Below are positions 8,756 to 33,129 of a DNA stretch of 64,000 nucleotides, in pieces. The position numbers and the translations under genes are program-made. Each line of letters begins with the position of its first letter. Position 1 is the first letter of the stretch. The notes under the pieces were generated by a model that searched no databases, was not told the DNA's origin, and was given only the letters and a program-made list of their open reading frames with translations. This DNA comes from Streptosporangiales bacterium (GTDB lineage: Bacteria; Actinomycetota; Actinomycetes; Streptosporangiales; WHST01): contig WHST01000014.1 in assembly GCA_009379955.1 (NCBI GenBank), positions 1-64,000 on the forward strand, in the 5' to 3' direction.

Positions 8756-9271
8756 TCAACAGTCGAAGACCGACCAGCAGATCTCGTTTCGCAACCGCTG
8801 ATCCTCCAGGACGAGTTCGCGAATCGCATCCGGAAGCTGTTCGCGCTGCCAACGGCACTCGAGCCGGCCGGCGCTCTCACCCTCGCATCCGGTGGCCGCC
8901 GCACGCGCGGCCTTGATCGCGTATGCCGCAGCACCGAGCTCGTGTGCGGCGACATGCGCCACCACCGCAGCCTGGCCGGCAGCATATGCGGCGTGCCGAG
9001 CGGCTCCGCTCAACTCTCTTGCCGCGGCCATGGCATGGCCACCCGCCGCGGGGGACTGAGACATCGTGATCTCGCCTCGTGTCCATGCCCGAATCTGCTC
9101 GATCGCCAGACGGGGCTGCGGGGCCGAGGGTTGCACCGACTCGAAGAGGTGCAGAACGTGCTCTGCGCACGCGGCAGCCCACAAAGCCAGGAGCCGATGG
9201 TCGGAGTCCGTGAGCGTCCCCCCGCGGCGGATGGTGATGAAGCGGGGGTCGCGCTCCTTCGGCAGGATCAC
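8756..9271 (-). CDS. Imm5-like putative immunity protein
   Basis: A 171-residue helical, alanine-rich protein with the pattern DPRFITIRRGGTLTDSDHR, then LALWAAACAEHVLHLFE and a late AGQAAVVAHVAAHELGAAAY helix, as in proteins annotated as Imm5-like putative immunity proteins. GTG start. No toxin gene is adjacent; the partner would have to lie elsewhere. It is the second orphan immunity-type gene in the first 10 kb. Confidence 0.65.
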   Translation of the reverse strand: MILPKERDPRFITIRRGGTLTDSDHRLLALWAAACAEHVLHLFESVQPSAPQPRLAIEQIRAWTRGEITMSQSPAAGGHAMAAARELSGAARHAAYAAGQAAVVAHVAAHELGAAAYAIKAARAAATGCEGESAGRLECRWQREQLPDAIRELVLEDQRLRNEICWSVFDC

Positions 9272-9603: not shown

Positions 9604-9635
9604 TTTCTGTTGCTACGTATGGACTTTCGAGCTTA

Positions 9636-9681
9636 GAGCGGGTTACTGGAATCGAACCCGCATTGTCAGCGTGGGAGTCCG
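9636..9681 (+). repeat. att copy 1 (tRNA-Gly 3' end, diverged)
   Basis: About 46 bp matching the tRNA-Gly 3'-end repeat at 23541-23584, with four mismatches, and continuing into the same non-tRNA flank (TCCGAGC) seen at 23585. This is the most decayed of the copies and marks the left end of the stacked elements. Confidence 0.8.
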
Positions 9682-9738: not shown

Positions 9739-9781
9739 GAGTGACCGTGGCTGACCGTGCGTAACAGCACATCAATAGCAC
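9739..9781 (+). repeat. integrase arm-type sites, element 1
   Basis: Two GAC-type decamers (GAGTGACCG, GGCTGACCG) are followed by AACAGCAC at 9763-9770 and AATAGCAC at 9774-9781, spaced by 11 bp. The same arrangement occurs at 23647-23689 beside att copy 3, so element 1 was related to the AICE. Confidence 0.6.
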
Positions 9782-10683
9782 GGCGGTCGCTGCTGCTCAT
9801 CGTCGGCGAGAACCTCGTTCACGGTGTGTTGGCCGATGTGATCGAGCACGGGGTTGTCGGCCGAGTGAGCTGTCATGAGCAGGCCGAGGAGTAGTGCCCA
9901 GCCACGACCGCGCGCCCATGTCGCGTCGTCGACCGATAGCGCTGTCCGGAATACGTTACGGACGTCGGCGGAGAAGACCGTCCATGCGGCCATGACGTCG
10001 CAGGCGGGATCGCCCACGGCTAGGAGGCCGAAGTCGATGACCGCGGTCAACTGACCGTCTTCGACCAGCAGGTTGGCGGGATGGAGGTCGCCGTGGAACC
10101 ACACCGGCGGACCCTGCCATTGCGGAGCCGCCAGCGCGGCATCCCAGGCTGCGGTCACGGTGGTGACGTCGAATCGGTCACGGACGCTGTTGATGTCGGC
10201 GCGGGTGAACTGGTCGCGCGTCGCCAGGGGAACGCCGCGCAGCTCATTGCGGGGTCCGTTGGTGGTGGCGACTGTTCGAAGCGCCTTGATGAACCGGGCC
10301 AAGTCGAGTGCTGCCTGCCCCGGGTCGGCGAGGGGTGCGGCGGCCGCGATCTCGCCGTGCAGCCATCGGCATACGGTCCAATGCCACGGGTAGCCCTCCG
10401 CTGGTGTCCCCTTTCCGAGCGGTGCGGGAATGGCGAGTGGCAGCACTGGGACGAGCATCGGCAGCCACTGGTGCTCCTTCTCGACTTGTCCAGCGCTCAT
10501 GCCTCGGCGAGGCAGTCGTACGGCGAGGTCCGATCCGAGGCGATAGATGGCGTTGTCCCATCCGCTGGCGTCAACGGGCTGGATCGGGAGGTCTGCCCAC
10601 TGTGGGAACTGCGCATTGAGCAGTCGGCGCACCAGGGGCACGTCGATGTGTACCTCTGCGGCGGGCTTGTGACCTGCACTCAC
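9772..10683 (-). CDS. APH-family phosphotransferase
   Basis: A 303-residue kinase-like protein of the aminoglycoside phosphotransferase (APH)/choline kinase superfamily. The catalytic loop is FHGDLHPAN (196-204), the metal-binding IDFG is at about 216-219 and the GDPACD motif follows. It has the N-lobe ATP-site strand AIYRLGSDLAVRLPRR. Members phosphorylate aminoglycosides, macrolides or other hydroxyl substrates; resistance is possible but not shown. Its 3' end overlaps the arm sites of element 1, and it is likely element cargo. Confidence 0.8.
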   Translation of the reverse strand: MSAGHKPAAEVHIDVPLVRRLLNAQFPQWADLPIQPVDASGWDNAIYRLGSDLAVRLPRRGMSAGQVEKEHQWLPMLVPVLPLAIPAPLGKGTPAEGYPWHWTVCRWLHGEIAAAAPLADPGQAALDLARFIKALRTVATTNGPRNELRGVPLATRDQFTRADINSVRDRFDVTTVTAAWDAALAAPQWQGPPVWFHGDLHPANLLVEDGQLTAVIDFGLLAVGDPACDVMAAWTVFSADVRNVFRTALSVDDATWARGRGWALLLGLLMTAHSADNPVLDHIGQHTVNEVLADDEQQRPPCY

Positions 10684-10758
10684 GCGTATCCTTTCGTCGC
10701 CAGAGCCATTTTCGCGCCGCGAGGACGTGGAGAGTCGTGCCGACCCCTACTCTGCCCC

Positions 10759-10890
10759 GTCCTCCTCATAGGAGCCGCTCGTAGGCCGCAGCGGAGTGGG
10801 TCAAGGGGTCGAGCTTGCTCGATCGCGAAGCGACAAGAAGTGCCGTTGACGCGCGGAGTGAAGGCCGAAGACTGGTCCGGCGAGGAGGGC
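10759..10890 (+). repeat. structured ~130-bp repeat, copy A (four-way junction fold)
   Basis: Closely similar to 23708-23840. Outer stem GTCCTCCTC (10759-10767) pairs with 10882-10890 through one G-T wobble; a CCGCT/AGCGG hairpin spans 10775-10794; an inner stem at 10800-10807/10843-10850 encloses hairpins 10809-10822 (TCGAGC/GCTCGA) and 10823-10833 (TCGC/GCGA) and a shortened third one (10834-10842). It is non-coding on inspection and could be a structured RNA or single-stranded-DNA signal. Confidence 0.65.
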
Positions 10891-11075
10891 GGGACCGTGA
10901 CTCACGAAGCGTGATCTGTAGGAGCGAGCAATGCAAGGTCGGTCCTCTGCGCCAAGCAGGTAGCGGCGGCTTGCAGTGTCGTCTGGGTGAAACTTCGGCG
11001 GGTGCCGTTTGGGTTATGTTGGCGGCAGGTACCACCACCGTGCAGACGCCCAGTCGGTGTCCGGTGGTTGACTCG

Positions 11076-12801: not shown

Positions 12802-12841
12802 CTTGATGGAGTAGAGCCGGTTTCGGCAACCAAGATCGTTT

Positions 12842-12876
12842 GGAGCGGGTGACGGGAATCGAACCCGCATTGTCAG
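12842..12876 (+). repeat. att copy 2 (tRNA-Gly 3' end)
   Basis: 35 bp identical to the tRNA-Gly 3' end at 33057-33091, then a different flank. It marks the junction between element 1 and element 2. Confidence 0.85.
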
Positions 12877-23539: not shown

Positions 23540-23584
23540 TGGGAGCGGGTGACGGGAATCGAACCCGCATTGTCAGCTTGGGAA
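23540..23584 (+). repeat. att copy 3 (tRNA-Gly 3' end)
   Basis: 45 bp identical to 33055-33099 in and beside the intact tRNA-Gly gene. It is the right end of element 2 and the left end of the AICE. Confidence 0.92.
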
Positions 23585-23646
23585 TCCGAGCGAAGGCCGG
23601 GTATAGCGGGTCTTCTGTGCGTGATCGATGGTCCGCCTGGTCGCCC

Positions 23647-23689
23647 GACTGACCGTGACTGACCGGCCGTAACAGCACGCAGACAGCAC
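23647..23689 (+). repeat. integrase arm-type sites, AICE left end
   Basis: GACTGACCG twice (23647 and 23657), then AACAGCAC (23671-23678) and GACAGCAC (23682-23689), spacing 11 bp. The AACAGCAC pair is repeated at 32964-32982 at the other end of the AICE. Confidence 0.65.
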
Positions 23690-23707
23690 GACCCCCACAC
23701 CTCCACC

Positions 23708-23840
23708 GTCCTCCTCATAGGAGCCGCTCGTAGGCCGTAGCGGAGTGGGTCAAGGGTCGAGCTTGCTCGATCGCGTAGCGACGGCGAAGCCGCCCTTGAC
23801 GCACGGAGTGAAGGCCGGAGACTGGTCCGGCGAGGAGGAC
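23708..23840 (+). repeat. structured ~130-bp repeat, copy B (closed four-way junction)
   Basis: Closing stem GTCCTCCTC (23708-23716) with 23832-23840; hairpin CCGCT/AGCGG (23724-23743); inner stem GTCAAGGG (23749-23756) with 23793-23800 enclosing, without a single unpaired base, three hairpins: 23757-23770 (TCGAGC/GCTCGA), 23771-23781 (TCGC/GCGA) and 23782-23792 (CGGC/GCCG). Similar to copy A at 10759. Function unknown; structured RNA or single-strand origin are options. Confidence 0.7.
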
Positions 23841-23852
23841 GGCCTCTGCGAC

Positions 23853-24833
23853 TCAAACGAAGATCGCGAGGGGAAGGATTTGGAGTGCTGGACCTGCAAC
23901 GATGGCCTCGGGTGCGTTGATGTCGAGGTCACCATCGGACGATTCGGTGAGGTCGTTGATGAAGGACCGCGAGAAGTCCGAGCCGGCAGCGCCCAGTGCG
24001 GTGCGACGGAAGAGGTTGATCTCGTCGTTCGTGTCCACGGTACTCGTGATCTTTCCGAGTACGGTGAATTGCCCGCCGAGAAGGTGTGCTTCACCTTCGG
24101 GTGGGAGGTATTCGCGGGCTACTGTAAGTACGGCGCGAAGGCTCGGGTCACCCTGAAGTACTAGATCGATGATCGGCGATTTCTCGACGTCCTTGTGCAT
24201 TGTTCGCAGCATGTAGGCAATCTGCTCAGGGTCCTCACTGTCGTCGTCAGTCGTGGGAGGTTGGGTAGCTCTGGTCTGTTCGCGCTGGGCTCGCCGCCTA
24301 GCTGCGCGGTCCTGGGGTACAGCCTGGGAAGGGGTCTCCTCTTCGGAGAGATCAAGCCCTAAGAATGGTGCGATGGCGTACATGAGATCGAGAACCTTGG
24401 CGAGCGGATTGCCGAGCACGGCACCCGTCAGCTCGACGAGCTGGCCGGGCTTCAGGCTAGGAAGTTCGGTGGGGTCGCTGACGAGGGTGACCCGGCCCTC
24501 CTGCGTGAGTGTGTGGCGAAGATGATTGAAGAGCGACGCTTCTGTGTGTTGGCGGACAACGTGGGTCTCCGTGCGCTGCGCGGCTCCCGAGTGCCGTTTG
24601 TATCGGCCGTCGGCATTGAGGCCAAAGAGACTGAAGATGGTCGGTACGCCCACCTTGGCACCGATCTCACCATCTGTCGCTTTGTCGCTCTGGACCTCCT
24701 GTATGATGTTGTTCTCGAACGAAATGCCGTCCTGCAAAGCGGCAAGAAAGCTAATGAGCATTGGCACGTCGAGGTAGACGGGATGGACGAGTTCCATCAT
24801 CGCTGAGCGGTTACGTGGCATCTGTGACTGCAC
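23853..24833 (-). CDS. DUF6414-like protein
   Basis: A 326-residue protein beginning VHPVYLDVPMLISFLAALQDG, a hallmark I associate with DUF6414, followed by an SDKATDGEIGAKVGVP stretch, a lower-complexity charged linker (about 180-205) and a C-terminal domain (LLGGQFTVLGKITSTVD). The family is scattered in genomic islands and has no settled role; defence or stress functions have been suggested by context only. Lower GC than its neighbours, as expected of recent acquisition. Start uncertain (GTG 24833 or ATG 24821). Confidence 0.6.
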   Translation of the reverse strand: MQSQMPRNRSAMMELVHPVYLDVPMLISFLAALQDGISFENNIIQEVQSDKATDGEIGAKVGVPTIFSLFGLNADGRYKRHSGAAQRTETHVVRQHTEASLFNHLRHTLTQEGRVTLVSDPTELPSLKPGQLVELTGAVLGNPLAKVLDLMYAIAPFLGLDLSEEETPSQAVPQDRAARRRAQREQTRATQPPTTDDDSEDPEQIAYMLRTMHKDVEKSPIIDLVLQGDPSLRAVLTVAREYLPPEGEAHLLGGQFTVLGKITSTVDTNDEINLFRRTALGAAGSDFSRSFINDLTESSDGDLDINAPEAIVAGPALQILPLAIFV

Positions 24834-24967
24834 GACCTTTCCGCATGAGTGAGTATCTGACGAAAACAGGACCGTAGATCGCGCAACAACGACCCTTGTT
24901 CATATTGCGGAAGTGCGGTGCTGAGCTACATCTGACCACGCTGTGTGCTGATTCAACCTTGGTCCGG

Positions 24968-25034
24968 GCCGTCCGCGAGGACGGCGCTCCGCGCCGCCCG
25001 CAGCGACGGTCGCGGGCGCCGCGTCAGCGGCGCC
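24968..25034. repeat. REP-like multi-hairpin, copy 2
   Basis: GCCGTCC/GGACGGC (24968-24985), a GCCCGC/GCGGGC stem, and GGCGCCGC/GCGGCGCC (25015-25034) followed by TTGAT. It parallels 12741-12801. The rest of 24834-25160 shows no gene. Confidence 0.5.
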
Positions 25035-25160
25035 TTGATCTACAAGAGGTCAACTCGGCAAGGTGGACACCCGGACCCGTGTCCTGTGCCGCCTGATGCT
25101 TGACAGTGGCATGCCGGCTGAAGCTTGACATGATCTTTCGCGGGGCATGATCGACGGGCC

Positions 25161-25619
25161 TCACCCCGGTTCCCGTCCGAGCCAGCGTGGGTCGTGCTGG
25201 AAGCCGGCTCGTTGATAGAGGGGTACTGCCTGGTCACTGGAATGGACGGTCACGTGCTCTAGTGCCAGCCTGTCCGCATCCGCCAGCACTGCTTCTAGCA
25301 ACGCCGCACCGATCCCGTGGTCGCGCACCTCGGGCACTACATACATCGATTGGACGTCGCCGCTACGTCGATATCGCCGTTCGGGGCTGGGCACCCGTTC
25401 AGTGAGCACCAGCCACGCCATTCCGACCACGTCATCACCCAGCTCGGCAACGAACGGGAGATGAGTCGGTAGATGGTCGCTGATCCAACTGGCGAACGAG
25501 TCAACGAAGCCGAGGGCGTCTGGTACGGCACGGCTGTCTCCCTCGGTCAACGCCGCCAGGCGAAGGTCCGCCATCGCTACAGCGTCGTCCTCTGTGGCCC
25601 TTCGTACCGTGACCTGCAC
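25161..25619 (-). CDS. GNAT-family N-acetyltransferase
   Basis: A 152-residue GNAT protein. Strand 4 and the acetyl-CoA loop read VQSMYVVPEVRDHGIGAALLEAVL (about 89-112), with RDHGIG as the pyrophosphate-binding loop, and the end DQAVPLYQRAGFQ is motif B. It transfers an acetyl group from acetyl-CoA to an amine; the substrate is unknown. GTG start. It is cargo between the AICE left end and its core genes. Confidence 0.85.
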   Translation of the reverse strand: MQVTVRRATEDDAVAMADLRLAALTEGDSRAVPDALGFVDSFASWISDHLPTHLPFVAELGDDVVGMAWLVLTERVPSPERRYRRSGDVQSMYVVPEVRDHGIGAALLEAVLADADRLALEHVTVHSSDQAVPLYQRAGFQHDPRWLGREPG

Positions 25620-25658
25620 CCTGGGCTCCCTCTATGCACGCGTCTCGACTGCGAGGGC

Positions 25659-26087
25659 TTAGGCGACTAGTAGTACGCCGTCGTGGTTGCGGATCGCGGG
25701 TGTGCCGTTGTAGCGGATCGCGTCGCGGGCGCGGACGACATAGGCGGGGTCCATGAGGTCGTCCAGCTCGTCGTCGGTAGCCCAGCGGAAGTCGGAGACC
25801 TCGTCGTTGACCCTGAGGTCTTCGGTGGTCGGGCGGCAGCGGAAGACGAGGGAGACGATGCCTCGGGTCATGTTCTTGTAGACACCGGAGAGCGTGTCGA
25901 CCTCGACGGACATGCCGGTCTCCTCGGCGATCTCGCGGGCGAGGCCGTGCTCGATGGTCTCGTCGAGTTCGAGGACGCCGCCTGGTGGTTCCCAGTGGCC
26001 GTTGTCGGCCCGTTGGACGAGGAGAACGCGGTTGTCGTCGCGGACGATGGCGGCGGCAACGCTGACGGAGTGGCGCTCGTTTGACAC
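25659..26087 (-). CDS. Nudix protein, Pif-like immunity factor of the AICE
   Basis: A 142-residue Nudix hydrolase with the box GGVLELDETIEHG then REIAEETGM complete. In pSAM2 the Pif protein, also a Nudix protein, blocks transfer between cells that already hold the element; this gene has the same position, divergent from the KorSA-like regulator. It also could be a general nucleotide hydrolase. Its promoter shares the intergenic region with one KorSA-type operator. Confidence 0.7.
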   Translation of the reverse strand: MSNERHSVSVAAAIVRDDNRVLLVQRADNGHWEPPGGVLELDETIEHGLAREIAEETGMSVEVDTLSGVYKNMTRGIVSLVFRCRPTTEDLRVNDEVSDFRWATDDELDDLMDPAYVVRARDAIRYNGTPAIRNHDGVLLVA

Positions 26088-26124
26088 GTTCGCCTCCCTT
26101 GCTGGCCCGTATGGCTACTCTGTC

Positions 26125-26136
26125 GTCTAGAGGAGT
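26125..26136. promoter_or_regulatory. KorSA-type operator, divergent promoter region
   Basis: GTCTAGAGGAGT lies 36 bp before the GntR start. It is the exact reverse complement of ACTCCTCTAGAC at 27009-27020, so the regulator probably binds here for autoregulation and for control of the Nudix gene. Confidence 0.6.
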
Positions 26137-26171
26137 GAAAGTACCAGGAACTTTCGACTAGGGGAGCGTCA

Positions 26172-26948
26172 GTGGCTCTTGGCAGCGTGGACACGGCGAG
26201 CGACCGCTCCGTGTTCCAGCAGATCGCGGATCAACTTCGCGAGGAGATCACGCGCGGGCGCCTTGGCGCGGGGGAACGGCTGCCCTCTGAGGCTGCGCTA
26301 ATCGATCACTACGGCGTGGCGCGGATGACGATCCGGCAGGCGTTGGGAGTGCTCAAGAGTGAGGGCCTGGTCGTTGCCGAGCATGGGCGCGGGGTGTTCG
26401 TGCGGCCTCGGCCGGTGGCTCGGCGGCTGGGTAGTGACCGGTTCGCGCGGCGGCACCGGGAGGCCGGTCATGCGGCGTTCGTGGCGGACGCGAAGGCCGC
26501 GGGGCAGCAGCACTCGGTGGACAACGTGCGCATCGATCGAGAGAAGGCTCCCACTGATGTCGCCGAGCTGCTCGGCGTGGACGGCCGCAAGAAGGTCGTG
26601 GTCCGGCGCCGGCGGTACCTGCTCGACGGGCATCCGGTCGAGGTCGCGGCCTCGTACATCCCGCTGGACGTCGCAGGAGGGACGAAGATCGAGGAACCCG
26701 ACACTGGTCCGGGTGGGATCTACGCCCGGATGGAGGAGCAGGGCTACACCTTCGGCCCGTTCCACGAGGACATCAGGGCGCGGATGCCGACGCCGGAGGA
26801 GATCACCGCGCTACAGCTCGCGCCCGGTGTCCCGGTCCTTGATCTCGTCAGAGTCGCCCGCGACGCGAGCGGGCGGGCTCTGGAGGTCTGCGAGACGGTC
26901 ATGGCTGCCGACTCGTTCGTGCTGAGCTACGACCTGCCCGCTAAGTAG
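26172..26948 (+). CDS. GntR/UTRA-family regulator, KorSA-like
   Basis: A 258-residue regulator. The winged helix (LREEITRGRLGAGERLPSEA then GVARMTIRQALGVLKSEGL, about 22-64) is followed by a UTRA ligand-binding domain. In pSAM2-type AICEs, KorSA is a GntR repressor of replication, transfer and its own gene; the matching operators here are at 26125, 26989 and 27009. GTG start after GGGGAGC. It faces the Pif-like gene and precedes the transfer operon. Confidence 0.85.
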   Translation: MALGSVDTASDRSVFQQIADQLREEITRGRLGAGERLPSEAALIDHYGVARMTIRQALGVLKSEGLVVAEHGRGVFVRPRPVARRLGSDRFARRHREAGHAAFVADAKAAGQQHSVDNVRIDREKAPTDVAELLGVDGRKKVVVRRRRYLLDGHPVEVAASYIPLDVAGGTKIEEPDTGPGGIYARMEEQGYTFGPFHEDIRARMPTPEEITALQLAPGVPVLDLVRVARDASGRALEVCETVMAADSFVLSYDLPAK

Positions 26949-26971
26949 GCTGCCTCCGTTCCGTGTGTCGC

Positions 26972-27020
26972 TTGACACCGCTTCGCCAACTCCTCTATAC
27001 ATGTGGTAACTCCTCTAGAC
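26972..27020 (+). promoter_or_regulatory. transfer/replication operon promoter with two KorSA-type operators
   Basis: TTGACA (26972-26977), 18-bp spacer, TATACA (26996-27001). Two operators, ACTCCTCTATAC (26989-27000) and ACTCCTCTAGAC (27009-27020), lie exactly 20 bp apart over the -10 and start region, so two dimers could bind on one face and block RNA polymerase. Confidence 0.65.
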
Positions 27021-27054
27021 GTGCAGAGGAGACGACAAGCGGAGGTAGTGACTG

Positions 27055-27513
27055 ATGGCGATTCAACGTGGTGAGCGGTTCCCGGTGGCGTTCGAGCACG
27101 CGTTTCCGAAGGGCCTTGTCCTGATCGGGGATGTGGAGGCTTCGACGGAGTACCAGTCGCAGGAGGACCGCAACCGTGGCCGTGAGGCCAAGCAGCGCGT
27201 GGACGAGCGGTCGGGCAAGCGGATCTGGAAGGCCGTGGCGACCGACCCGGACGAGGGACGGGCCAAGCGGGCGTCGTTCGAGATCCAGTTCATCGCCGAC
27301 GTGCAGCCGGTCCCGCCCGGTGACGAGGTGCTGCCGGGCATGCGCCCGATCGCCCTCGACGGCCTGCATGTCGAGCCGCACGTGACCGGTCAGGGCGAGT
27401 ACAAGTCCCTAGCGTTCCGGGTCTGGGCGACCGGCTTCGCCGACCCCAAGGCCGCGTCTCGCTCGCGGTCGCAGTCCGGGCAGGGCTCGCAGGGTAAGGA
27501 GCAGGCGGCATGA
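27055..27513 (+). CDS. conserved AICE protein, first gene of transfer operon
   Basis: A 152-residue protein with an N-terminal beta-rich part and a Ser/Gln/Arg-rich tail. It contains DEGRAKRASFEIQFIADVQ. The position just after the KorSA-type promoter and before the small genes and traB matches the first operon gene of other AICEs, but I cannot assign it to a described activator such as Pra. GGAGG ribosome-binding site. It overlaps the next gene (ATGA). Confidence 0.6.
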   Translation: MAIQRGERFPVAFEHAFPKGLVLIGDVEASTEYQSQEDRNRGREAKQRVDERSGKRIWKAVATDPDEGRAKRASFEIQFIADVQPVPPGDEVLPGMRPIALDGLHVEPHVTGQGEYKSLAFRVWATGFADPKAASRSRSQSGQGSQGKEQAA

Positions 27514-27788
27514 CGGCCCGGAGGCGTGAGCTGGCGGTGACCACGAACGTGCACCTGCGCGCGGGTATGCCGTTCGGTGTGACGGCCTTCGACGCCAACG
27601 ACCGGCGCGGGCCGTTCGTCAGTGTCGACCTCGGTGACGGCTTGACCACGGTGTCGCTGTTCATCGAGGACGAGGACACCGCCAACCGGCTCATCGCGGT
27701 CGCGGGGGAGGCGCGGGCGAAGCTCGTCGGCGCGATGACTCGCGCGAGGCAGGCTGAGTCCGGTCAGCCGGAGCTGATTGCTTCCTAG
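27510..27788 (+). CDS. small AICE protein
   Basis: A 92-residue protein. The strand pattern VSVDLGDGLTTVSLFIEDEDTANRL is followed by a C-terminal helix. It overlaps the previous gene by 4 bp. It is a small accessory gene of the AICE operon; function unknown. Confidence 0.6.
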   Translation: MTARRRELAVTTNVHLRAGMPFGVTAFDANDRRGPFVSVDLGDGLTTVSLFIEDEDTANRLIAVAGEARAKLVGAMTRARQAESGQPELIAS

Positions 27789-27870
27789 AGCGGCGCGGCA
27801 GCGGTGAAGGATTCCAGGCCCGCCGCTGCCGCGCCTTCCACACCACACCCCCAGAGAGGGCGTAGCAGGC

Positions 27871-28212
27871 ATGTCCCAGCGTAGAAGCAGCAACCACGTG
27901 CCGCCGGAGCCGGAGCAGCCGGCGATGTTCACCTACCGCGTCGACCAGGTCGCCAAGAATCTCGCCCTGGGCGACAAGCCGAAGTGGCGGTACCCGTGCG
28001 GGCTGTGCAACGGCTCCCTGGTGTCCGAGCCGGGCGGGCTGTGCTCGACGTGTGCACCGACCCCGCCTCGGTCGCGGCGCAAGACCGCGAAGCCTCGTAC
28101 CGCGAAAAAGACCACCACCGCCAAGACGACGAAGACGAGTGAGTCGAGTGGTCGGCCTCGGGCGAAGCGGGTCCCGCCGTGGGACCGGGTCGCGGACGGT
28201 GGTGCGTCATGA
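27871..28212 (+). CDS. AICE zinc-ribbon protein with basic tail
   Basis: A 113-residue protein. A CGLC...CSTC pair (about 48-66) can bind zinc, and the C-terminal third is a Lys/Thr/Arg-rich tail (KPRTAKKTTTAKTTK) likely to bind DNA. Stop overlaps the traB start (ATGA). It may help the translocase or the initiator act on DNA. Confidence 0.6.
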   Translation: MSQRRSSNHVPPEPEQPAMFTYRVDQVAKNLALGDKPKWRYPCGLCNGSLVSEPGGLCSTCAPTPPRSRRKTAKPRTAKKTTTAKTTKTSESSGRPRAKRVPPWDRVADGGAS

Positions 28213-29747
28213 GAGGCGTCGCCTACAAGAAGCCCTCCCCGACGGTGCGGGCGGAGTCGTTCCGGATCGGGTTCTGGACCGTCCTCGGCGGCACGATCGC
28301 CGCTGGGATCGGGCGTGTCGTGTGGTGGCTGGTCCGGCAGTGGCCGGTCTGGCTTGTCGTCGGGCTCGGCTACGCCGCCTGGCGGGTGCACGCCCGGTTC
28401 GACACCCACGGCCTGTCACTGGCCGCTCTCGCCCTGGTGACGGTGCTGGTGGCCTGGCGTGTACTGCACGCCCGGTCGTTCAAGCTCGTCGTGTCCTGGC
28501 CGCTGCGGTCATGGTGGCGCCGCGTCGCCCGGTATGGACGGGGCTGGGACGAGCTGGTGGCCGTCACCGGCCTGGTCAAGCCGTTCCGTGGCCGCGAGCT
28601 CGCCCCGGTGCTGGGGCGGTGCAGGTCGACCGACACCGTGGACCGGCTCCGCGTCCGCACCCTGCGGGGTCAGGTGCTGGCGGACTACGCGGGCAACGCG
28701 GAGCGGTTCGCCGCGTCCAACGGTGCGATTGACTGCCGCGTCCGGTCGGTCCGCACCCCGGTCATCCGGTTCCGAGGGAAGACCCTGGTCCGGTCGCGGG
28801 TCGTGCCGCGCCTGCTGGAGCTGTGGTTCCTGGTCACCGACCCGCTACGGGACCCAGTCGCACTGTTCCCGATCCCGGACAAGCCGAACCTCCACCGCCT
28901 CCGCGTCGCTCACCGCGAAGACGGCCTCCCGTGGCATCTGCGACTCCGGGGCACCCACGTCCTGGTGGCTGGTCGCACGGGGGCGGGGAAGGGCTCGGTG
29001 TTGTGGTCGATCGTCCGTGCGCTCGCCTCGGCGGTGCGGGACCGGTGGGTCGAGCTGTGGGTCGTCGACCCCAAGGGCGGCATGGAACTCGCCGCCGGAC
29101 AAGGCCTGTTCGCCCGGTACTGCTACGGCGACAACAACACCGACGACGAAGGCCGCAAGCGCGCGTATCAACTCGACTTCGCTGAGTTCCTGGAAACCCT
29201 TGTCGACCGGATGCAGGAACGGCAACGGGACCTGCGGGGCGTGTCCCGAACGCACAAGCCGCGGCCGGGTGACCCGCACATCGTCGTGCTGATCGACGAG
29301 CTGGCGTGCCTGACCGCGTATGTGACGGATCGGGAGGCGAAGAAGCGGATCGAAGCCGCCCTCGGACTCCTCCTCAGTCAGGGCCGCGCGGTCGGCATCA
29401 CCGTCGTCGCCGCGCTGCAAGACGCCCGGAAGGAGGTGCTGCCGGATCGGGGGCTGTTCCCGACCCGGATCGGGCTGGCGGTGAACGAGCCGGAGGAGAC
29501 CGACCTGGTCCTCGGCTCGACGGCGCGGAAGAACGGTGCCCGCTGTGACGAGATCTCCGAGGACACCCCTGGTGTGGCGTTCGTCGCGGTGGAGACCGAG
29601 AAGGAACCCGTCCGGGTCCGGTTCGGCTACGTCGACGACGAGGAGATCACCCGCCTCGCCGTCACCTACCCACCCGGCGCCGCCCCGGTCGACCCGTATC
29701 CCAGCGATCCCACGCACACCGAGACCCGGCAGGAGGACCAGTCATGA
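28209..29747 (+). CDS. TraB/TraSA-type FtsK/SpoIIIE DNA translocase
   Basis: A 512-residue protein. Two to three hydrophobic segments occupy about 22-88; Walker A AGRTGAGKGS (254-263) and Walker B VVLIDELACL follow in an FtsK/SpoIIIE ATPase domain. In AICEs this single hexameric protein moves double-stranded DNA between mycelial compartments. The ATG overlaps the upstream stop (ATGA), and the end overlaps the next gene, so it lies in the transfer operon. Only one tra gene is expected in such elements. Confidence 0.88.
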   Translation: MRGVAYKKPSPTVRAESFRIGFWTVLGGTIAAGIGRVVWWLVRQWPVWLVVGLGYAAWRVHARFDTHGLSLAALALVTVLVAWRVLHARSFKLVVSWPLRSWWRRVARYGRGWDELVAVTGLVKPFRGRELAPVLGRCRSTDTVDRLRVRTLRGQVLADYAGNAERFAASNGAIDCRVRSVRTPVIRFRGKTLVRSRVVPRLLELWFLVTDPLRDPVALFPIPDKPNLHRLRVAHREDGLPWHLRLRGTHVLVAGRTGAGKGSVLWSIVRALASAVRDRWVELWVVDPKGGMELAAGQGLFARYCYGDNNTDDEGRKRAYQLDFAEFLETLVDRMQERQRDLRGVSRTHKPRPGDPHIVVLIDELACLTAYVTDREAKKRIEAALGLLLSQGRAVGITVVAALQDARKEVLPDRGLFPTRIGLAVNEPEETDLVLGSTARKNGARCDEISEDTPGVAFVAVETEKEPVRVRFGYVDDEEITRLAVTYPPGAAPVDPYPSDPTHTETRQEDQS

Positions 29748-29995
29748 CCCCCACCGACACGATCACCCTGGACGGGTCGTGGATCGAGGAGACCCGCGAG
29801 ACGGTCATGGACGGGTTCGACTGCGGGGTGTGCCTGGACTTCGGGTACCTCGACGGCCTGGGGCCGTGCCCGCACTGCGATCCCGACGGCTACGCCGAAC
29901 ACGTCCACTGCGCCACCCAGGCCAGACCACAGTTCGGGCTCGACGGTGCCGACCCGTGGGCCGACTCGCCCGATCTGGTATGGGTGCGGTCATGA
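29744..29995 (+). CDS. small AICE zinc-finger-like protein
   Basis: An 83-residue protein with two CxxC pairs (CGVC and CPHC, about 27-45). It overlaps traB (ATGA) and the rep gene (ATGA). Similar short Cys proteins lie between tra and rep in other AICEs, with unknown role. Confidence 0.6.
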   Translation: MTPTDTITLDGSWIEETRETVMDGFDCGVCLDFGYLDGLGPCPHCDPDGYAEHVHCATQARPQFGLDGADPWADSPDLVWVRS

Positions 29996-31518
29996 CGGCG
30001 ATCACCCTCGACGTCATCCGCGCCGCCGCCGAGATCGAGGGCGTGTGCGTCCGGCCGATCGTGTCCCACCTACATGACGTGGAGACGGGCAAGAAGCGGC
30101 TGGTGCCGATCCCGTGCGGCTCGACTCGGGAGGCGCAGTGCCCGCCGTGTGCGGACAAGGCCCGGAAGTTGCGGATGCAGCAGTGCCGGGAGGGCTGGCA
30201 CCTCGACACCGAACCCGACCCTCCCGAGCACGACGAGGACGACGGTTACGGCGAGGACGCCGAGGACCAGGCCGACGACGCCGACGGGGGGTCGGAGCGG
30301 CGGGTCCGGTCGACTCGGCGTCGCCAGGACGCACCCGACCTGCCGTCGTACGAAGTCGAGGCCCGCACGGTCGGGCAGGTGTTCACCACCGACGGCGGCA
30401 AGACGTACCGGCCGTCGATGTTCGCCACGATGACGCTCCCGTCCTATGGGCGGGTTCGGTCGGACGGGACTCCGGTAGATCCGGGCTCGTACGACTACCG
30501 GCAGGCTGCCTTGGACGCGATGCACTTCCCGAAGCTGGTGGACCGGTTCTGGCAGAACCTGCGCCGTGCGGTCGGGTACCGGGTGCAGTACTTCGCTGCC
30601 GTCGAACCCCAGCGGCGTCTCGCGCCGCACCTGCATGCGGCGATCCGGGGTGCGATCCCTCGCGTGGTGATGCGGCAGGTCATTGCCGGGACCTATCACC
30701 AGGTGTGGTGGCCCGCGTTCGACGAGCCCGTCTATGACGATGAGGAGCTACCCGGCTGGGATCACTCCGCCGGCGGCTATGTCGACCCCGATACCGGGGA
30801 GTTGCTGCCGACCTGGGAGCAGGCCCTCGATCGGCTCGACACCGACCCCGACGCCCGACCTGGGCACGTGGTCCGGTTCGGGGAGCAGACCGACCTGCAA
30901 GGCATCCTCGCCGGGACCTCGCAGGCCGATCGGCGGGTGGGGTACCTGTGCAAGTACCTGAACAAGTCGATCGCCGACACCCATCCCGACGAGGAGCCCT
31001 CGGCACGGCGTTCCGCGCATGTCGATCGGCTGTGGGAGCAGGCCCGGTGGCTGCCGTGCTCGCCTCGGTGCGGGAACTGGTTGCGCTACGGCGTGCAGCC
31101 CAAGGACGCACGGCCCACGTTGGAGCCGGGCAGGTGTCGGGGGAAGGCGCATCGGCGGGACACGCTCGGGTGTGGTGGTCGTCGGGTGTTGGTGTCGCGG
31201 CAGTGGACCGGCAAGACCCTCACCCAGCACAGGGCCGACCGGGCTGCTGTCGTCCGGGCCGTGCTCGAGGAAGCCGGGATCGAGGCTCCCGACGTCGACC
31301 GGTACTCGACCAAGGTCACCACGGCTGACGGGCGGCCTCGGTTCGTATGGACCGCCGTTCGCGCCCACGAGGTACCTGCCTACCGGGAGCTGCTGCTCGA
31401 CCTGCTCAAAGAGCGCCAACGCTGGCGCGGGCAGTACGAGGACGCCAAGCAACGCGCCGGGCCACCGGGTCGGGATCTTTCGGCAACCGAGGAAGCCGCC
31501 GAGGAGGTGGCGGCATGA
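29992..31518 (+). CDS. RepSA-like rolling-circle replication initiator
   Basis: A 508-residue initiator. Motif 1 is MFATMTLP (about 143-150), the metal-binding HUH-like motif is APHLHAAIRG (211-220), and the catalytic tyrosine region is RVGYLCKYLNKS (315-326, Tyr318/Tyr322). An acidic linker (about 77-100) separates a Cys-containing N-terminal part. It nicks the element's origin and primes rolling-circle replication after excision. Tightly coupled to neighbours by overlaps; no origin was identified by eye. Confidence 0.85.
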   Translation: MTAITLDVIRAAAEIEGVCVRPIVSHLHDVETGKKRLVPIPCGSTREAQCPPCADKARKLRMQQCREGWHLDTEPDPPEHDEDDGYGEDAEDQADDADGGSERRVRSTRRRQDAPDLPSYEVEARTVGQVFTTDGGKTYRPSMFATMTLPSYGRVRSDGTPVDPGSYDYRQAALDAMHFPKLVDRFWQNLRRAVGYRVQYFAAVEPQRRLAPHLHAAIRGAIPRVVMRQVIAGTYHQVWWPAFDEPVYDDEELPGWDHSAGGYVDPDTGELLPTWEQALDRLDTDPDARPGHVVRFGEQTDLQGILAGTSQADRRVGYLCKYLNKSIADTHPDEEPSARRSAHVDRLWEQARWLPCSPRCGNWLRYGVQPKDARPTLEPGRCRGKAHRRDTLGCGGRRVLVSRQWTGKTLTQHRADRAAVVRAVLEEAGIEAPDVDRYSTKVTTADGRPRFVWTAVRAHEVPAYRELLLDLLKERQRWRGQYEDAKQRAGPPGRDLSATEEAAEEVAA

Positions 31519-31745
31519 CGACGGAGAGGCACGACACGGAACGGCTGTTGACGGTGGAGCAGGCAGGCGAGCTGCTCGGCACGAACGGGCCCCGGTTCCC
31601 TCGGCGGCTGATCGCGGAGCGGCGTATCCGGTTCGTGCGGGTCGGACGGCATGTGCGGATCCCGGAGTCGGCGGTGCGGGAGTTCGTCGACGCCAACACG
31701 GTCGAGCCCATCGTGCGGGACCGCTACGGACGGGCGGTGGCCTGA
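31515..31745 (+). CDS. xis: excisionase (AlpA/Xis-type) of the AICE
   Basis: A 76-residue HTH protein: LLTVEQAGELLGTNG then RRLIAERRIRFVRVGRHVRI and an Ile-Pro-Glu-Ser segment, the standard excisionase pattern. It overlaps rep by 4 bp and touches int by one base (TGATG). The rep-xis-int order is that of pSAM2-like AICEs. Confidence 0.85.
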   Translation: MTTERHDTERLLTVEQAGELLGTNGPRFPRRLIAERRIRFVRVGRHVRIPESAVREFVDANTVEPIVRDRYGRAVA

Positions 31746-32965
31746 TGGCGAAGCGGAAGGGACGTCGTCGGTTCGGCTGGGTGCGGAAGCTGCCCTCGGG
31801 TCGCTACCAGGCGAGCTATCTCGGTGCGGACGGTCTCCGGCAGAACGCGCCGCACACCTTCGCCAGCAAGGACGAGGCGGGGGACTGGCTCACCCTGCGC
31901 GAGGCCGATCGGGTGCGTGGCGATGCACCACCGGCGAGGCGGGGAGCTATGCCCTTCGGGCCCTACGGCCGTGAGTGGGTCGACGAGCGTTCGGGACTGC
32001 GGCCGCGCACGGCTGACCTCTACCGCTGGCTGCTGGTCAAGTACCTGGACTCGTTCGAGTCGGTGCACCTGGTGGACATCGACCCCGCAGCCGTACGGCG
32101 GTGGCGGGCGAAGCTCCTACGCGGCGGTGTTTCGGCAACGATGGTGGCGAAGGCGTACCGGCTGTTCCGCGCGATCATGATGACGGCCGCCGAGGATGAC
32201 GAGCTGATCGTGCGCAACCCGTGCCGGATCCGTGGTGCGGGCACCGAGACACCGACCGAGCGACCCGTGCTGACTGTCGCGCAGGTCTACGCCCTCGCCG
32301 ACCGGATGCCCGCGCGGCTCCGAGTGCTGGTCCTGCTGGCGACGTTCGGGAGCCTGCGCTTCGGTGAGGTCACCGCGTTGCGGCGTCGAGACGTCGACCT
32401 CGACGAGCGGAAGGTGCAGGTTCGTCGGGCGTTCACGGAGGTTCGGGGGCAGGGCCTGGTCGCCGGTCCGCCGAAGTCGCGCGCAGGCGTCCGGACGGTC
32501 TCGCTCCCGGCGGCGGTGATCACGGACCTGCGCCGCCACCTGGCCGAGCACACCAAGGCGGGCAACGATGCCCTGGTCTTCACCGTCCCGAACGGGTCAC
32601 CGGTACGACGGGGAAACTTCAACAAGGTGGTCGGCTGGCGGGACGCGGTCGCCGCGATCGGGGCAACCGGCCTGCACTTCCACGACCTGCGGCACACGGG
32701 CAACACCCTCGCTGCCGACGCCGGGGTGAGCACGCGGAACCTCATGGCTCGGATGGGACACGACAACGAGCGGGCGGCGCTGATCTACCAGCACGCGACC
32801 GCGAAGGCCGATCGGCTGATCGCGGACGTCCTGGACGCCCAGGTCCGTGCGGAGCGTACGAACAAGACCACAAAGCGCGGTCGGAAGCAGTCGACCCGAT
32901 CGAACTCGGACGAGGACGACGAACCGGACGAGGGGGCAGCGGGTGTGCTCGTGCCGACCGGCTAA
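31745..32965 (+). CDS. int: tyrosine integrase of the AICE
   Basis: A 406-residue tyrosine recombinase with all catalytic residues: Arg in GSLRFGEVTALR, Lys in PPKSRAGVRTVSLP, the His-x-x-Arg box HDLRHTGNT, MGHDN and Tyr in ALIYQHAT. It carries an N-terminal SAM-like core-binding domain and a Lys/Asp/Glu-rich tail. The intact frame contrasts with the amber-broken integrase of element 2. It ends 94 bp before the tRNA, which is its attachment site. ATG start overlaps xis by one base. Confidence 0.92.
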   Translation: MAKRKGRRRFGWVRKLPSGRYQASYLGADGLRQNAPHTFASKDEAGDWLTLREADRVRGDAPPARRGAMPFGPYGREWVDERSGLRPRTADLYRWLLVKYLDSFESVHLVDIDPAAVRRWRAKLLRGGVSATMVAKAYRLFRAIMMTAAEDDELIVRNPCRIRGAGTETPTERPVLTVAQVYALADRMPARLRVLVLLATFGSLRFGEVTALRRRDVDLDERKVQVRRAFTEVRGQGLVAGPPKSRAGVRTVSLPAAVITDLRRHLAEHTKAGNDALVFTVPNGSPVRRGNFNKVVGWRDAVAAIGATGLHFHDLRHTGNTLAADAGVSTRNLMARMGHDNERAALIYQHATAKADRLIADVLDAQVRAERTNKTTKRGRKQSTRSNSDEDDEPDEGAAGVLVPTG

Positions 32966-32982
32966 CAGCACGCGAACAGCAC
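32964..32982 (+). repeat. integrase arm-type sites, AICE right end
   Basis: AACAGCAC at 32964-32971 and 32975-32982, spacing 11 bp, starting in the int stop codon. It matches the pair 23671-23689 at the left end. Confidence 0.65.
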
Positions 32983-32995
32983 GAGGGACGACGAA

Positions 32996-33024
32996 GGCGC
33001 CTACCGCCGAACCGGGTAGGCGCC
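32996..33024. terminator. hairpin between int and tRNA-Gly
   Basis: GGCGCCTAC (32996-33004) pairs with 33016-33024 across a short loop. On the minus strand the stem is followed by TTCGTCGT, so it would end tRNA transcription; it also lies after int. Confidence 0.65.
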
Positions 33025-33058
33025 GGCTCTCGTTGCTGCGTAAGGGTTTCGAGTTGGG

Positions 33059-33129
33059 AGCGGGTGACGGGAATCGAACCCGCATTGTCAGCTTGGGAAG
33101 CTGATGTTCTACCACTGAACTACACCCGC
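33059..33129 (-). tRNA. tRNA-Gly(CCC), attachment site of the stacked elements
   Basis: A 71-nt tRNA on the minus strand, 5' end at 33129. The acceptor stem is GCGGGTG/CACCCGC, the D arm GTTC/GAAC, the anticodon stem TCAGC/GCTGA around loop TTCCCAA (anticodon CCC, reading GGG), and the T arm GCGGG/CCCGT with loop TTCGATT. The terminal CCA is not encoded. Its 3' half (33055-33099 in window order) is repeated at 23540, 12842 and 9636, and the AICE integrase lies next to the 3' end. Confidence 0.95.

Follow-up and report, generated by a model that had tools for sequence, protein, structure and literature searches.

A covarying four-way-junction element on actinobacterial rolling-circle replicons, probably a new type of single-strand origin with a putative function

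The window, that is, the entire 64,000-nucleotide stretch of Streptosporangiales DNA that was analysed, contains a tRNA-Gly(CCC) gene and a tandem array of att copies of its 3' end (33055-33099, 23540-23584, 12838-12876 and 9609-9676). The first two of these, which are identical in 45/45 positions, delimit a pSAM2-type AICE with a GntR regulator, an FtsK-type transfer gene, RepSA (E 7e-96) and an integrase, all on the forward strand (Table 1). The whole region 9609-33129, with four att-like copies and two integrases, consists of integrative elements that have accumulated in tandem at a single tRNA-Gly. The subject of this analysis is an element of ~135 bp that is present in two copies. Copy B is located 122 bp inside the tRNA-distal att of the AICE, on the rep-sense strand, and the more decayed copy A is in the remnant further away, next to a gene for an APH-family phosphotransferase (9772-10683) and a gene for an Imm-5-like immunity protein (8756-9271). 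The original prediction placed both copies on the tRNA-distal side of att arms, and the last three att copies listed above bear this out.

Table 1. The two element copies, the parts of copy B and the associated integrative element
Feature	Coordinates	Strand	Basis
Copy A, partly decayed (H3 shortened, P1 mismatched), in the remnant between att 9609-9676 and 12838-12876	10757..10892	+	
tRNA-distal att, matching the tRNA-Gly 3' end region at 45/45 positions	23540..23584	.	
Copy B, complete; candidate sso for the AICE spanning 23540-33099	23706..23842	+	
Outer stem 5' arm of copy B, 11 bp with 23832-23842	23706..23716	+	sequence; outer-stem pairing across copies
Inner stem P1 5' arm of copy B, GTCAAGGG	23749..23756	+	
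Hairpin H1 of copy B, TCGAG-CTTG-CTCGA	23757..23770	+	
Hairpin H2 of copy B, TCGC-GTA-GCGA, GNA triloop	23771..23781	+	
Hairpin H3 of copy B, CGGC-GAA-GCCG, GNA triloop	23782..23792	+	
Inner stem P1 3' arm of copy B, CCCTTGAC	23793..23800	+	
-35-like hexamer TTGACG, within the P1 3' arm of copy B	23796..23801	+	
-10-like hexamer GAGACT of copy B, spacer 16	23818..23823	+	
Outer stem 3' arm of copy B	23832..23842	+	sequence
GntR/UTRA regulator of the AICE	26172..26948	+	mechanical ORF
FtsK/SpoIIIE transfer protein of the AICE	28179..29747	+	mechanical ORF
RepSA, PF20199, pSAM2-type rolling-circle initiator; domain ~30007-31299	29536..31518	+	
Tyrosine integrase of the AICE, domain in the C-terminal third	31019..32965	+	mechanical ORF
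tRNA-Gly(CCC), integration site	33057..33129	-	

Copies A and B are 89-91% alike over ~135 bp and their flanks differ outside the element; a third copy (88%) is found elsewhere in the same genome, so that the similarity, which had been described as a duplication, is not due to chance. The junction of copy B is as originally drawn, with the inner stem P1 enclosing H1, H2 and H3 without a single unpaired base between them, and the outer stem closes the fold as proposed, except that it is 2 bp longer than the 9 bp reported. Copy A likewise retains the outer stem, with one G-T pair, and has a shortened H3. When folded with DNA parameters, copy B yields z-scores of -5.97 on the forward and -5.95 on the reverse strand; among the six copies folded on the + strand, five have z-scores from -4.05 to -8.80, and the sixth, copy A, folds weakly (-1.53, with 16 of the 200 shuffles as good). 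For copy B taken alone, the four-way junction (-17.1 kcal/mol) is 0.6 kcal/mol above the predicted optimum (-17.7 kcal/mol).

The covariance model, denoted R1, that was run over actinobacterial genomes as had been proposed reveals a large family, and the additional homologues do covary. The core of the aligned copies consists of GTCAAGGG, three abutting hairpins and CCCTTGAC. In the alignment of 32 copies (30 distinct), 93.8% of the paired cells are actually paired, compared with a mean of 85.4% after shuffling, the covariation score is 0.270 vs 0.119 for shuffled alignments and at most 0.054 for slid structures, and changes on both sides are detected in 12 of the 26 pairs. Among the copies with three recognisable GNA hairpins, H1 has 11 different 5' arms, some of them read shorter, each perfectly partnered. 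The outer stem co-varies as well: helices of at least 7 bp are formed by the two flanks of the same copy in 69/86 cases vs 112/506 for flanks taken from different copies. The suspected structural constraint is thus borne out for both the core and the outer stem.

The family is broadly represented in the order, with relatives detected in 65 of the 345 genomes by a DNA search in which at most two candidates per genome were scored, and R1 matches in 133 of the 345 genomes and 39 of the 70 genera (at most 15 candidates scored per genome). In a wider sample of the phylum, 17 of the 396 genomes have a match at E ≤1e-6; R1 matches also occur on plasmids of Streptomyces, Kocuria and Pseudonocardia, and the exact pattern is present in Microbispora, Sphaerisporangium, Microtetraspora, Planotetraspora, Actinomadura, Amycolatopsis and other named genomes. 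A search of plasmids with one of the relatives (L027) retrieved 19 records and the same search with copy B none; 15 of the 19 matches have no listed gene beneath them, three lie under one annotated gene, and one record is unannotated. The element is, then, non-coding, with a stable single-strand fold. No Rfam family matches it, in agreement with the original remark that no known family fits, and no matches were found in phage records or, with the exact pattern, in viral contigs; other clusters of GNA hairpins, sought in rolling-circle plasmids as possible divergent relatives, were not found either. In Amycolatopsis bartoniae, ~15 dispersed copies reside within a ~450-bp repeat (L179-L218).

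The two strands of the structure are not equivalent. On the + strand, GNA loops are found in 68 (H1), 73 (H2) and 68 (H3) of the 87 copies, 209 of the 261 loops altogether, whereas TNC loops are absent (0/261). C-GNA-G loops form unusually stable mini-hairpins in DNA and not in RNA. Folding energy does not discriminate between the strands (with DNA parameters, the mean difference is -0.14 kcal/mol, and the + strand is not favoured), so that the strand reading of the GNA loops rests on this stability rule. The pairing is almost strictly canonical, with 1118 Watson-Crick, 13 G-T and 2 A-C pairs among the 1148 stem pairs.

TTGAC forms the end of the inner-stem 3' arm, and at 15-18 nt past TTGACN, a -10-like hexamer (A2, T6) is present in a cluster-weighted 10.7 of the 14 clusters that were obtained by single linkage of the 87 distinct copies by their right flanks; one of these clusters includes 71 copies, so there are effectively few independent flanks. 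Shuffled flanks give a mean of 1.7 clusters, with 0/2000 reaching 10.7, and the control windows give 0.07-2.03 for other 4-nt spacings and 0.58 for the mirror side. Examples of the hexamer include TACAAT, GACAAT, GACACT, CATAAT and TATCCT; 24 of the 87 copies lack an A2/T6 hexamer at this distance, among them the DUF222-type ends discussed below, with TACGCC in its place. In folds predicted with DNA parameters, 401 of the 435 bases at the five -35 positions are paired, compared with 148 of the 378 bases of the -10, that is, the modelled structure would present a double-stranded -35 together with a mostly open -10 in an internal loop.

Could the element be an ordinary structured RNA, or else a double-stranded promoter with an upstream cruciform? 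The covariation is of the kind seen in RNA families, and the closed stem with three hairpins, which is the optimum of the core in 59 of the 87 copies with DNA parameters, is also the optimum in 46 of the 87 with RNA parameters. The structured RNA, one of the four options of the original prediction, is nevertheless disfavoured because of the prevalence of GNA loops, the complete lack of TNC loops and the rarity of G-T pairs, to which the negative Rfam search can be added. Both versions of this explanation are further at odds with the finding that no conserved gene lies downstream of the copies and with the preservation of the -10 in an internal loop, and together they appear highly improbable.

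In the elements in which the two could be compared, the strand with the GNA loops and the promoter-like signals is, with few exceptions, also the rep-sense one. A motif-blind scan for RepSA covered 61 genomes, 12 of which hold 21 R1 copies. Nine of these copies, which correspond to eight elements (G000, G001, three in G039, G067, G080 and G229), lie within 15 kb of RepSA, compared with ~0.35 expected by chance given the 49 RepSA matches in the ~88 Mb of the 12 genomes; the G075 copy, for which no position is given, was counted as not near RepSA. In 8/8 of these elements, the structure and RepSA are on the same strand, with RepSA 3' of the structure. Searches with RepSA and Rep_1 using tblastn, with at least 100 aa matched, give the same strand agreement at 8/8 further loci (L153, L158 and L162 for RepSA; L131, L166, L170, L176 and L220 for Rep_1), three of which, L166, L170 and L176, were picked by Rep and not by the motif. 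The agreement is therefore 16/16 for elements that combine a strong R1 match with a Rep match spanning 100 aa or more, a count that leaves out shorter Rep matches (L149, L189, L071) and weak structure matches (pSNA1, pXT107). The short Rep fragments are on the same strand in L149 and L189, and at L071 (the same place as L043 and L193), a 56-aa RepSA fragment is on the opposite strand. In the 8-kb plasmid pPA43082, a copy occupies the gap before the Rep_1 gene, on the same strand.

When replicons are chosen by Rep rather than by the motif, the structure is found in a minority. In a sample of 13 plasmids (12 actinobacterial rolling-circle plasmids selected by Rep homology, and pIJ101), three have matches at E <1e-6, those of Streptomyces NBC_00138, P. 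broussonetiae and R. erythropolis (pRE8424), all in the rep-sense orientation. The match in pRE8424, a plasmid with a reported SSO, is located 86 bp after rep (36.3 bits). The match in pXT107 is weak (21.8 bits on the + and 20.7 on the - strand), with the same plan recognisable by eye, that in pSNA1 is weak and on the opposite strand (24.4 bits, E 7e-4), and pIJ101, the sso of which is known, has no R1 match. Furthermore, none of the 20 motif-blind RepSA regions contains R1 at E <0.05, so most AICEs either lack this structure or use another type, and many copies have no Rep nearby. Where a strong R1 match and a Rep match of 100 aa or more do co-occur, the element is found on the correct strand of rolling-circle replicons.

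On several plasmids, a Rep, mobF or transfer gene is close by, which could also be taken to indicate a nick site, that is, a double-strand origin, an oriT or a clt-like transfer site, the last of which was among the options initially considered. This is the least credible of the explanations considered here: the same element occurs on a TrwC plasmid and on replicons whose Rep proteins belong to the unrelated families PF01446 and PF20199, its distance from Rep varies from 86 bp to more than 11 kb, and it is present where neither Rep nor a relaxase is in reach. Contig 1 of G333 (62,024 bases; L111, L112) resembles a 22.2-kb TrwC-relaxase plasmid assembled ~2.8 times over, with one structure per 22.2-kb unit, adjoining an integrase.

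Among the options in the original prediction, a single-strand origin is favoured: judging from sequence and predicted folding, the element is probably a candidate origin of this kind, in which a promoter would be presented by the folded rep-sense single-stranded DNA. In the available part of the relevant account, known sso's are orientation-specific, in F and many Gram-positive plasmids the fold is a promoter for RNA polymerase, and ICEBs1 carries an sso, sso1 (PMC4595007). In the present case, rolling-circle replication or transfer would expose the rep-sense strand as single-stranded DNA, on which the element would fold into three adjacent mini-hairpins, mostly with GNA loops, on a stem with the 3' arm CCCTTGAC, so that the -35 (TTGAC) would be double-stranded; the -10-like hexamer would lie 15-18 nt onward in an internal loop, and the outer stem would close the fold. 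The host RNA polymerase could then read the folded element as a promoter; since there is just one strand at this stage, the RNA would be copied from the DNA on the 5' side of the structure and would serve as primer for complementary-strand synthesis. What the computation itself shows is the fold with its covariation, the spacing typical of a promoter, the pairing of the -35 next to a largely unpaired -10, the strand bias of the loops and the agreement in strand with Rep; polymerase binding, priming and a cellular function are extrapolated from these. The dispersed and paired chromosomal copies would be instances of this module that other mobile elements carry or have recruited.

Like the sso's of Gram-positive rolling-circle replicons and sso1 of ICEBs1, as far as these are described in the part of the text available (PMC4595007), the element is non-coding, multi-hairpin and strand-specific, and resides in rolling-circle replicons; it appears to differ from them in sequence, the comparison having covered pIJ101 and pRE8424, and differs in the closed four-way junction, the GNA triloops and the -35 within the junction stem, and in that its function is putative. 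The sso of pIJ101, which is sti according to the portion of PMC4170104 that is accessible, belongs likewise to an actinobacterial rolling-circle plasmid but has no R1 match. The structure thus probably represents a new sso type, and, given that the 20 blind RepSA regions hold no match, it is one type among others.

Another precedent is Frpo which, in the available part of its description, is a folded single-stranded DNA promoter that serves early genes; the Frpo/ssi elements of F and related plasmids have a -35 and a -10 presented by folded single-stranded DNA, the same logic as that proposed here, but differ in sequence (PMC11541004). If the element were of this type, its main job would be early gene expression on the entering strand rather than priming, which appears very unlikely, since the 5' neighbour gene is in the required direction in 8 and in the opposite direction in 6 of the 14 annotated plasmids; there is no consistent gene on the required side and strand and hence no general bias toward expression of 5' genes. 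A Frpo-like role on single plasmids is possible: Kocuria indica pCE7 has ArdC, of an anti-restriction family, located 5' of the element and oriented as such an RNA would run, and mobF is found in Streptomyces subrutilus.

Apart from single copies on plasmids and AICEs, the element occurs in outward-facing pairs. In the genus g56, a DUF222 gene lies between two outward-facing copies at 15/15 paired loci (L090, at a contig edge with one copy, is not included). These DUF222 proteins are typically 420-430 aa long (two were tested, with Pfam E values of 3e-27 and 6e-21), with an HNH-like C-terminus by eye. Average similarity is 98.3% between the two ends of one g56 element (15 elements) and 96.4% between ends of different elements in the same genome (68 comparisons). 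A universal partnership with DUF222 was rejected because the gene is absent at 25 other loci (L071, L083-L085, L090, L111-L130). In G696, the cargo between the pairs varies and includes, as judged by eye, a GntR regulator, HAD-like genes and HTH genes, in addition to small ORFs; the ~0.85 kb enclosed by the pairs of G678 has no clear gene. An empty site is available for one G678 copy: 824 bp are absent from the corresponding locus of G850, where the flanks are 9 bp apart. Paired inverted ends around cargo are found for the g56, G696 and G678 copies only. The DUF222 element L072 has no clean empty site, its flanks lying apart in relatives. In G316, the structure is contained within a 1.6-kb repeat, IS3-like by eye. 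Since copies bound or lie inside such elements, the module is part of mobile elements beyond rolling-circle plasmids, and the original suggestion of a passenger repeat is partly true, given that copies are scattered and mark the boundaries of small mobile elements.

Several further observations concern these loci. In the genome from which the window comes, a long palindrome adjoins most DUF222 genes (L091, L092, L093, L095, L101, L102, L105, L106, L107), with the outer arms GCTGCCTCACCCC / GGGGTGAGGCAGC (L102, L105) and GTCAAGA / TCTTGAC within the inner stem; in L011, a relative found in G001, an R1 core is enclosed by these same outer arms, which possibly links the palindromes to the R1 structure. 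Outside the DUF222 elements at L072-L089, the outward strand is C/A-rich on both sides, with decayed CGAACACCC repeats. Two of the 0.85-kb paired elements of G678 (L221, L224) are situated past the ends of similar genes, presumably DUF397-like, which suggests a preferred target. G316 contains ~10 near-identical 1.6-kb IS (L114-L118, L130), with the structure ~130 bp past the transposase stop, by eye.

These pairs raise the alternative that what is seen is simply a terminus of some transposable element (MITE-like, or one of two paired ends), recognised by a transposase or HNH nuclease, with the promoter-like spacing and the plasmid locations being incidental. The outward inverted pairs around DUF222 in all 15 g56 loci and around variable cargo in G696 and G678, the G850 locus without the 824 bp, and the close similarity of copies A and B within different flanks all fit this explanation. 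It is nonetheless judged unlikely, given that small plasmids and AICEs carry single copies with no partner, almost all of them in the rep-sense orientation, and that the -10 peak is confined to one side. A target-site duplication was not definable, the flanks being too divergent. MITEs and the repetitive REP13E12 / DUF222 (13E12 repeat) genes are comparable in their structured inverted ends and repetitive DUF222 genes, respectively; in the accessible parts of the REP13E12/DUF222 literature, no description of structured mobile ends was found. Streptomyces telomere palindromes form single-stranded DNA hairpins with C-GNA-G loops, whereas the copies described here are internal rather than at chromosome ends. 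A telomere connection was dropped; it had rested on weak copies in G222, a genome in one contig, where they lie 2-3 kb from the end.

A single-strand origin and mobile ends might be reconciled if a priming structure had been recruited as the paired outward ends of a new kind of mobile element that moves via single-stranded DNA, namely the DUF222-HNH elements of one genus and the elements with short cargo in another. This is a tentative and rather doubtful proposal. Because both ends face outward, whichever strand became single would have the structure at its 3' end, allowing self-priming of the second strand; each strand of a paired element would thereby end in a priming structure on its 3' side, with a logic, if true, like that of parvovirus terminal repeats.

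Second-strand synthesis in AICEs appears to be little studied; the terms 'sso' and 'second strand' do not occur in the available text of the AICE survey (PMC3218068). The candidate described here is defined, widespread and strand-specific, has what may be a built-in promoter and can be cloned directly. It also offers a handle on the neglected DUF222-HNH repeats, some copies of which are flanked by matching structured ends and act as mobile units.
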